35,240 nucleotides of DNA from Cyanobacteria bacterium SIG32 (lineage in GTDB: Bacteria; Cyanobacteriota; Vampirovibrionia; Gastranaerophilales; Gastranaerophilaceae). The stretch is from NCBI GenBank assembly GCA_015152455.1, contig SUTY01000008.1, positions 1 to 35,240 of the forward strand. The letters run 5' to 3'. Under the pieces are notes generated by a model that saw only the letters and a list, made by a program, of their open reading frames with translations, was not told where the DNA came from and searched no databases. The first letter of the stretch is position 1, and every line of letters starts with the position of its first letter. The position numbers and the translations under genes were made by a program. Shown here one piece after another: positions 12,137 to 24,498 of the stretch.

Positions 12137-12185
12137 AGTGATACATTTTAAGGTTGGAAGATCCAACAGAATAGGAGATCGTAGT

Positions 12186-12236
12186 ATGTTAAAAAGTGAA
12201 GCTATGACTGGCTTTAAGACCTTAGGGGGGGGGTAG
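12186..12236 (+). CDS. Micro-ORF MLKSEAMTGFKTLGGG* ending in G9-TAG; candidate phase-variable 5' end of the prepilin gene
   Basis: AGGAG RBS at 12173-12177, ATG 12186, G9 at 12225-12233, TAG 12234-12236; G8 would open the frame into the prepilin. Confidence 0.5.
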   Translation: MLKSEAMTGFKTLGGG

Positions 12237-12267
12237 AAACGCTCTCCTAGCAAGGCTTTCGGATGTT

Positions 12268-13281
12268 TTGGGATTATTCCCTCGCCCTATGGGAGAGGGT
12301 AAGGGTGAGGGGGCAGCATTTACTTTAGCTGAAGTCCTAATCACCTTGGCAATTATTGGCGTTGTTGCAGCAATGACAATTCCGACATTAGTTGCAAATT
12401 ATCAACAAAGATCTTGGGATACTGCATCAAGTGTTTTCAATAGAAGACTTGGTGAAGCATTGAAAATTATGAATGCTAATTCTAGTCTAGCAGGTTTTGA
12501 TTCTACTGCTGATTTTGTTGAAGAATTATCTAAACACATTAAAATAGTTAAAACATGTTCTAGTGATAAACTTACTGATTGTTTTACATCAGAAATTTTA
12601 ACTACTGCAGATCCTGTTGAAACAAGTAAGTTAAAAGCATCTAAAAATCTTTATTCAACAACAGACTATGGCACAGAAACAATTGGTGTAATGTTTGGTG
12701 ACGGAACATCTGCACTAATCGCTTACAATAAAAACGCAACAGAAGATCCATATTCAAACACAGTAGTAAGATTTTCAGGTGGACGTGATAGTGTAGCTAT
12801 GGGTACTGATGCAATATCTATTCTATATGATATTAACGGTCTAAAAACACCTAACCAAATGGATACAGGTAAGGATATAAGAGGATTAAATATTGCAATT
12901 AAAACTGGTGCTCCTTTCAAAAACCTTGGTAAAATATCAACACCAGTAGATTGTTCAACAACTGCTTCAACATCTACAGATGCAAAAATCAAAGCTGATT
13001 ATGACGCATATTGTGGACCAAATCCGTCAGGCTATTCATCTGACTACTGGGCAGGAGCTAAGAGAGCTTGCGTAGATGAAGGCATGCATTTACCAACACG
13101 ACAAGAACTCAAAGACCTCTATGCAAGAAAGGGTGAAGAAGGAATTCCAACTTCCGGCTGGTTCTGGTCTTCGTCAGAGGACAATATCTACCACGCGTGG
13201 GTACTCGACTTTGCCAGTGGGGAAGAGCCCATCAGCTACAAGGGCGACAACAACGATTACGTGTTGTGCTTAGGTAATTAA
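12268..13281 (+). CDS. Type IV prepilin-like protein with DUF1566/Lcl_C-like (C-type lectin fold) C-terminus; true start uncertain
   Basis: GAA^FTLAEVLITLAIIGVVAAMTIPTL prepilin signature; C-terminus GMHLPTRQELKDLY...SGWFWSSSEDNIYHAWVLDFASG...DYVLCLGN. ORF-track start is a TTG without RBS; alternatives are ATG 12289 or fusion to ATG 12186. Confidence 0.85.
   Translation: MGLFPRPMGEGKGEGAAFTLAEVLITLAIIGVVAAMTIPTLVANYQQRSWDTASSVFNRRLGEALKIMNANSSLAGFDSTADFVEELSKHIKIVKTCSSDKLTDCFTSEILTTADPVETSKLKASKNLYSTTDYGTETIGVMFGDGTSALIAYNKNATEDPYSNTVVRFSGGRDSVAMGTDAISILYDINGLKTPNQMDTGKDIRGLNIAIKTGAPFKNLGKISTPVDCSTTASTSTDAKIKADYDAYCGPNPSGYSSDYWAGAKRACVDEGMHLPTRQELKDLYARKGEEGIPTSGWFWSSSEDNIYHAWVLDFASGEEPISYKGDNNDYVLCLGN
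12291..12313 (+). other. G-quadruplex motif in the prepilin leader coding strand
   Basis: GGGAGAGGGTAAGGGTGAGGGGG: four G>=3 runs with 3-nt loops. Confidence 0.6.
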
Positions 13282-13443: not shown

Positions 13444-13472
13444 AGGTCAGAATTTCGGTTCTGACCTTTTTT
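13444..13472 (+). terminator. Rho-independent terminator
   Basis: AGGTCAGAA-TTTCGG-TTCTGACCT then T-run. Confidence 0.85.
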
Positions 13473-23339: not shown

Positions 23340-23414
23340 ATGCTTAAAACCCAAGTAAAAACTTCAATAACTTACTTACATACTAACTCCCTAACTTCAT
23401 TAGGGGGGGGGTAG
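23340..23414 (+). CDS. Micro-ORF MLKTQVKTSITYLHTNSLTSLGGG* ending in G9-TAG (cassette 2)
   Basis: AAGGA RBS at 23330-23334; G9 at 23403-23411; TAG 23412-23414; shares 25-nt block with cassette 1. Confidence 0.45.
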   Translation: MLKTQVKTSITYLHTNSLTSLGGG

Positions 23415-23736: not shown

Positions 23737-24498
23737 ATGAAAAAAACTGTAAAAAACTTGATCACTTGGTCACCTAGTCACTTGATCACTTCCCCAAAAT
23801 CCGCTTTTACTTTGGCTGAAGTTCTAATCACCCTAGCAATTATTGGTGTCGTTGCGGCAATGACAATACCTACCTTGATAAGTAATTACAAAAAACAAGT
23901 TGTAGAAACAAAATTATCCAAATTCTACACCACAATGAATCAAGCTATTAGATTATCTGAAGTTGACAATGGTTCTATTTTGACCTGGAAAAGACTTGAA
24001 GTTGATGAAATCGTCGATAGTGAGGGAAACCAACAAAAAATAACAACAAATTCTCTAGAATGGTTTAACAAATACATTGCACCATATATAAAAATAGCAA
24101 AAGTCGAAGAAGTTGAAAACGACCGTGAGGGGAATATTTTGATTTATTTTCTTGATGGATCATTAGTAAGTATAGGAGCAAACAGTTGGTTATTCTATCC
24201 TGATGCAAAAGACTACAAGTCAAGTATTGGAACAGACGGATATGTAACAAGAGATACCGCAATATCTGGAAGTAAATATTTCACATTCCATTTTAACCCT
24301 CATAGTTCTTCACGCCACCATAAAGGAAAAGGGATGGAACCATATGGTGTTGGTTGCGACCTTTGTACCATAAAACATTTCAAAACTAGAGCTGACATTG
24401 GTTGCAGAAAAGATGCCACAAACGAAGCCGCATATTGTACAAAAGTCATCCAGTTAAACAACTGGAAAATTCCTAAGGATTATCCATTTGAATTTTAA
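23737..24498 (+). CDS. Type IV prepilin-like protein
   Basis: KSA^FTLAEVLITLAIIGVVAAMTIPTLISNYKKQ; RBS AAGGAAAAAGG. Confidence 0.88.
   Translation: MKKTVKNLITWSPSHLITSPKSAFTLAEVLITLAIIGVVAAMTIPTLISNYKKQVVETKLSKFYTTMNQAIRLSEVDNGSILTWKRLEVDEIVDSEGNQQKITTNSLEWFNKYIAPYIKIAKVEEVENDREGNILIYFLDGSLVSIGANSWLFYPDAKDYKSSIGTDGYVTRDTAISGSKYFTFHFNPHSSSRHHKGKGMEPYGVGCDLCTIKHFKTRADIGCRKDATNEAAYCTKVIQLNNWKIPKDYPFEF
23758..23789 (-). repeat. Octamer array D inside the prepilin 2 leader coding sequence
   Basis: TTGATCAC|TTGGTCAC|CTAGTCAC|TTGATCAC; reverse complement gives GTGATCAA|GTGACTAG|GTGACCAA|GTGATCAA, the array A unit. Confidence 0.75.

Follow-up and report, generated by a model that had tools for sequence, protein, structure and literature searches.

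The window analysed here, a whole stretch of 35,240 nucleotides from Cyanobacteria bacterium SIG32 (Gastranaerophilaceae), contains a run of nine G residues inside a type IV prepilin leader, and the question raised by this locus is whether the tract decides if the prepilin is translated. The initial annotation had proposed a phase-variation switch, with ribosomal or transcriptional slippage as an alternative reading. The G9 tract is considered likely to be a contingency locus in the prepilin leader that switches translation by phase variation; this reading was supported by all computable tests, and switching within a population was not shown.

Locus anatomy and reading frames

On the forward strand, the Shine-Dalgarno sequence AGGAG (12173..12177) is followed at 8-nt spacing by ATG 12186. 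Reading from this ATG gives only the mini-ORF MLKSEAMTGFKTLGGG (12186..12236, +), which enters the G9 tract (12225..12233, +) and is ended by TAG 12234-12236, directly 3' of the tract. The prepilin frame (GGT AGA AAC ...) is without a stop from within the tract up to 13281, covering the post-tract leader GRNALLARLSDVLGLFPRPMGEGKGEGAA (12232..12318, +) and the mature type IV pilin (FTLAEVLITLAIIGVVAAMTIPTL..., 320 aa; 12319..13281, +), and the leader frame is also open in paralogues with different leader modules. Loss of one G or gain of two (G8 or G11) fuses ATG 12186 to the prepilin frame, and RNALLARLSDVLG is an example of the predicted leader peptides; the G10 reading stops after ...GGGVETLS; actual G10 copies were found in the genome. 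In the proposed slippage switch, G8 and G11 are ON, G9 and G10 are OFF, and the mini-ORF is the OFF product.

All of these features, namely the G9 with its RBS-preceded ATG and TAG-terminated short product, the open prepilin frame, the effect of one G fewer or two more, and the G10 stop, had been claimed in the initial annotation and held. The claim that neither TTG 12268 nor ATG 12289 has a visible ribosome binding site also held, with only a weak AAGG near the TTG and the ATG unconserved. The view that the window copy was assembled in the OFF state is supported, the frames being out at G9, and it is inferred from sequence alone, as is expression.

Further elements surround the tract. A 5'-UTR hairpin, GTTGGAA-GATCCAAC (hairpin GTTGGAAGATCCAAC; 12153..12167, +), lies directly 5' of the Shine-Dalgarno (SD) sequence, and a compensated hairpin variant, GTTGGGAAAACCAAC, occurs at the matching pre-SD position in paralogues L057 and L153. 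A REP-like inverted repeat, CCCTCGCCC...GGGTGAGGG (12279..12312, +), doubles as leader coding sequence and holds ATG 12289 in its loop. A terminator-like hairpin with a T tail (13444..13467, +) is found 3' of the pilin gene. The RNA fold of the tract region was not decisive (z = -1.85).

The window prepilin (FTLAEVLITLAIIGVVAAMTIPTL) meets the type IV prepilin criterion of a hydrophilic leader followed by about 21 hydrophobic residues with Glu5, and the signal at its N-terminus is of class III. Its GspG/PilA-like N-terminal matches were under the cut-off and its weak C-terminal Lcl_C match was sub-threshold; paralogue 23737 exceeds the TIGR02532 and PF07963 cut-offs. Gly at -1 has been called invariant in bacteria (PMC4471445), and this criterion is not met by the window copy, which has Ala; over the 129 tract-prepilin places described below, the residue is A in 65, G in 60 and S in 4. 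The window protein is concluded to be pilin-like with a lineage-typical Ala at -1, cleavage at this Ala being inferred. A prepilin peptidase is encoded in the same genome (PF01478 at G000:C95:45289, where G000 is the window's own 1.7-Mb assembly and C numbers are its contigs). The C-terminal parts of paralogues carry DUF6613 or no known domain, so the gated proteins vary in their exposed parts. In loci L037, L038, L039 and L040, an in-frame insertion doubles the signal motif (...AAFTLAE-GATHVGNCANYRKSAFTLAEVL).

Two classes of locus were distinguished. In class 1, represented by the window locus, the pilin ORF extends to the tract and no SD-ATG lies 3' of it, at most a weakly preceded TTG, and therefore the only well-supported translation route runs through the tract. 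In class 2 (23403/23737 type), tract and pilin are separated by a stop; in 24 of 25 such loci in G000 an SD-ATG of its own precedes the pilin, the sole exception (L036) being frameshifted. The second tract of the window belongs to class 2: its mini-ORF (23340..23414, +) runs from ATG 23340 through G9 23403-23411 to a TAG, and the prepilin 3' of it (23737..24498, +; DUF6613 and N_methyl) has its own SD and ATG (MKKTVKNLITWSPSHLITSPKS-AFTLAEVL) and is not gated by frame. About 24 G000 loci retain a tract ahead of such a self-starting pilin, where frame gating is impossible.

Tract copies and length variation

The initial annotation had called a G9 run conspicuous, and this held. In 1.7 Mb of this composition, chance would give about 0.25-0.34 runs of G>=9 on both strands, and G000 carries 73 overlapping G9 matches, or 53 distinct tracts with flank enough to compare. 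Almost all of these tracts stand 5' of paralogous prepilin genes. When 751 bases around the tract were searched against G000, 50 matches were obtained, and the upstream block (SD, ATG and tract) was present in about 30 near-identical copies, the window locus being one of them, with the SD kept in nearly all. The earlier account of one locus is thereby extended to about 30 block copies in the genome, with a similar layout across gut Gastranaerophilales.

Tract lengths in G000 are fairly uniform (G9 in 43/53, G10 in 10/53). The 27 exact-pattern matches comprise 18 with TTA-G9, three with A->G at unchanged total length, five longer by one base, and one interrupted tract, GGAGGTGGG; no pure tract of the G000 block has a length that gives the pilin frame. 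The interrupted tract belongs to the paralogue on contig C98 (L035/L095) and has the length of G8. This copy reads stop-free from MLKNEAMTGFKTLEVGRNALLARLSDVLG... into FTLAEVL (leader MLKNEAMTGFKTLEVGRNALLARLSDVLGLFPRPMGEGKGEGAA^FTLAEVL, 412 aa), which is precisely the leader that had been predicted for loss of one G.

Downstream of the tract, most G000 copies carry the REP-like repeat, and others have a shorter form of this repeat, a repeat of the HPELVSGS type, a fusion straight to FTLAEVL (L048) or an extra GATHVGNCANYRKS unit. Every module type is read in one frame relative to the tract, the G8/G11 frame. In an alignment of 33 copies of the MLKSEA block from G000, the leader region is indel-free except for the tract, with gaps only at the far upstream edge. 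Palindromic repeats, REP-like and others, were observed to code for prepilin leaders, being exchanged between copies with the frame intact. A few copies are degenerate (L036, L046). Numerous contigs (C1, C24, C25, C48, C71 and others) terminate inside prepilin copies, and the real copy number is therefore probably above the assembled count.

Comparison of homologous loci showed that paralogues differ in tract length. Between them, tract length varies while the flanks stay constant, which meets one criterion for a contingency locus. Where two copies have identical flanks, their tract lengths are unequal in 10 of 20 pairs in the poly-C genome G091 and in 3 of 10 in G000; the sole such pair in G072 combines L370 (G10, in frame, ON) with L374 (G11, out of frame, OFF), and the sole pair in G053 combines G10 with G12. 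The usual length also differs by genome (G9 in G000, G10 in G053, G10-11 in G072, C11-12 in G091 and C8-9 in G043). Only one copy of a G000 locus from another strain was found (L096, 99% identical), and it is also G9; it was the one copy recovered when viral contigs were scanned for length variation at the same locus. L096 is an IMG/VR contig on which the G9 tract prepilin has phage-like genes as neighbours, and it may represent the edge of a prophage in a related strain.

MutS is encoded in G000 and in all genus members tested, and 9-long tracts may therefore switch slowly. Loss of mismatch repair as the source of mutability was rejected on the same observation.

Frame statistics and spread among relatives

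Frame statistics were compiled over 129 tract-prepilin places in 57 assemblies, for which several different assemblers had been used; since many loci are paralogous, these counts lack independence. From the tract to FTLAEVL, the leader has an open pilin frame in 127/129 places. When 60 nt of pilin are added to the leader, the pilin frame is open in 126 places and the two alternative frames in 0 and 20. No ATG, GTG or TTG occurs between tract and pilin in 119/129, and in some places just 3-4 residues separate the tract from FTLAEVL. A start preceded by an SD lies 5' of the tract at 118/129 places, usually 6-12 codons upstream, and the SD-ATG is confined to one frame class in 112/121.

At 13 of the 118 places with such a start, it is in the pilin frame; the tract has one surplus G at 51 places and lacks one at 54. 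The in-frame count departs from one third (p = 4e-8) and the two offsets do not differ (p = 0.85). The in-frame share is thus 11% (genome-bootstrap interval 5-17%), where one third would be expected if frame were irrelevant. Out-of-frame readings end early (median 3-4 codons) and do so more often than composition predicts, a result weakened by paralogy.

When about 85,000 species genomes were scanned for at least 8 G followed within about 70 nt by an FTLAEVLIT-coding motif, at least 118 stretches matched, nearly all titled Gastranaerophilales, Melainabacteria, Scatousia or unnamed gut MAGs. The only rows apparently outside the group were a Muribaculaceae-labelled contig, a genome with the label Fusobacterium sp. 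CAG:439 and a few with generic labels. Within the window's GTDB family, tract-prepilin loci were found in 18/80 genomes (11/41 genera) and the pilin motif in 65/80, while the reversed control pattern gave 0/80.

Poly-C tracts in an unchanged layout occur in 8/80 family genomes, in other genera, and poly-C loci with an SD-ATG mini-ORF and leader were identified in G008 (L100), G006 (L110), G043, G091, G074 and G103. The opposite base stands at the equivalent position in these convergent loci, which argues that it is a slippery homopolymer that is conserved, and not polyglycine, a GGG frameshift site or a G-quadruplex. At L284:5907-5946 (minus strand), G11 and G10 tracts stand in a tandem duplication before one prepilin.

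Rival readings, proposed mechanism and known systems

If ribosomes shifted frame in a programmed manner or transcription slipped at the tract, every cell would make some prepilin and the tract would be no switch between cells. For this reading, most assembled copies are out of frame, one offset dominates per genome (16/20 one too few in G053, mostly one too many in G000), and long G or C runs are slippery. However, a fixed direction of shift would be required, and the two offsets are equally common across assemblies (51 vs 54); in-frame and out-of-frame copies share identical flanks (L370 G10 vs L374 G11 in G072), same-flank copies in G091 would require opposite shifts (C11 vs C12), and a gene needing constant expression would be in frame. 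Since both poly-C and poly-G are used, no single slippery codon pair or tRNA accounts for the tracts. Slippage of this kind is unlikely as the main mechanism and is not excluded as a source of leak.

A separate possibility is that the prepilin is translated from a start 3' of the tract (TTG 12268 or ATG 12289) and that the mini-ORF is an unrelated uORF or regulatory leader peptide. The window copy does contain this TTG and ATG, and class 2 loci such as 23737 have separate starts, but ATG 12289 is replaced by GCG or ACG in paralogues L031, L034 and L032, TTG 12268 has no strong SD, and no start codon follows the tract in L048 or in 119/129 places elsewhere. There is little room for this reading, and the mini-ORF as a pure leader peptide was rejected for class 1, where post-tract starts are unconserved or absent. 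That the frameshift is an assembly or sequencing error, or that the family is decaying into pseudogenes, is suggested by the draft state of the MAGs, by the many copies at contig ends and by the few degenerate copies. Against this, the architecture recurs in all 57 assemblies with long pilin ORFs intact, the G000 leader block is indel-free outside the tract, leaders are open in nearly all places, and random errors in an in-frame gene would not yield 89% out of frame; error or decay is thus held to be very improbable.

The phase-variation switch remains the preferred reading. Besides variable length between constant flanks, the locus meets two further criteria for a contingency locus: a G/C tract of at least 9 inside an ORF near its 5' end, and an SD and start upstream with a full ORF at some tract lengths and an early stop at others. 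The points against it are the absence of read-level or population data, the fairly uniform lengths in G000, the lack of any pure block tract in the pilin frame, the unchanged G9 in the single copy from another strain, the roughly 24 G000 tracts ahead of self-starting pilins, the presence of MutS, and the dependence among counts from paralogous loci. Under the switch reading, translation would begin at the SD-ATG upstream of the tract, and slipped-strand mispairing in replication, which is inferred, would lengthen or shorten the G tract. Ribosomes would read on from the mini-ORF into the prepilin in the G8 and G11 states (ON) and would reach a stop within a few codons in the G9 and G10 states (OFF). 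A bias in length change would keep tracts near 9-10, and the frame of the leader would set whether the usual length is ON or OFF, here mostly OFF. Given dozens of tract-prepilin loci, a population may consist of cells carrying different small pilin sets; an ON/OFF mixture within the population, reversible switching, pilus expression and any benefit are likewise inferred.

A bolder reading, to which we lean only slightly, is an OFF-biased combinatorial pilus coat in gut Gastranaerophilales. Tens of structural pilin genes per genome would each be gated independently by a G/C tract that is usually of an out-of-frame length; each cell would thus express a random small subset, and the device would have arisen or been re-tuned several times (poly-G, poly-C). 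If true, these non-photosynthetic gut Cyanobacteriota would own one of the largest homopolymer-controlled surface-gene batteries, unusual in targeting structural type IV pilins. The great size of the prepilin families in these genomes would be explained, and pili facing host, phage and neighbours are predicted to be heterogeneous between cells. Searches of the open-access literature turned up no earlier report of phase variation in Gastranaerophilales, Melainabacteria or Vampirovibrionia, the one match being a flagellin survey. Structural type IV pilin leaders with tens of tract copies were also unreported in the open-access literature searched, and an earlier report elsewhere is possible.

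Among known systems, Campylobacter jejuni is similar in its many poly-G contingency loci of G8-G11. An insertion bias at G8-9 and a deletion bias at G10-11 have been described there (cited in PMC4085013), and a bias of this type would keep tracts near G9-G10, as observed in these genomes. C. jejuni belongs to a different phylum from Gastranaerophilales, and its tracts lie mostly in surface glycan and flagellar modification genes, not in pilins. In Bordetella fim, a poly-C promoter tract switches fimbrial subunit genes; that system acts through promoter spacing on chaperone-usher fimbriae, whereas the one proposed here is translational and concerns type IV pilins.

Parallels also exist with Neisseria. 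As in pilE/pilS, a type IV pilin repertoire is varied, and C tracts occur in a few pilS alleles (PMC5953494); unlike pilE/pilS, where silent cassettes are recombined into one expressed locus, each copy here has its own SD, start and tract. A silent-cassette system was rejected for these loci, the aligned copies retaining SD and ATG. Poly-G/C phase variation of pilC (Jonsson 1991, cited in PMC5953494) and other Neisseria poly-G loci share a G/C homopolymer of at least 9 inside the ORF, with ON and OFF set by frame, and the modal poly-G length in pathogenic Neisseria is about 9 (PMC5953494). Poly-G tracts of all kinds number about 15-19 per Neisseria genome (PMC5953494). The pilC gene encodes a single adhesin/assembly factor and is present in 1-2 copies, whereas here the tract lies in the leader of a structural pilin with dozens of paralogues.
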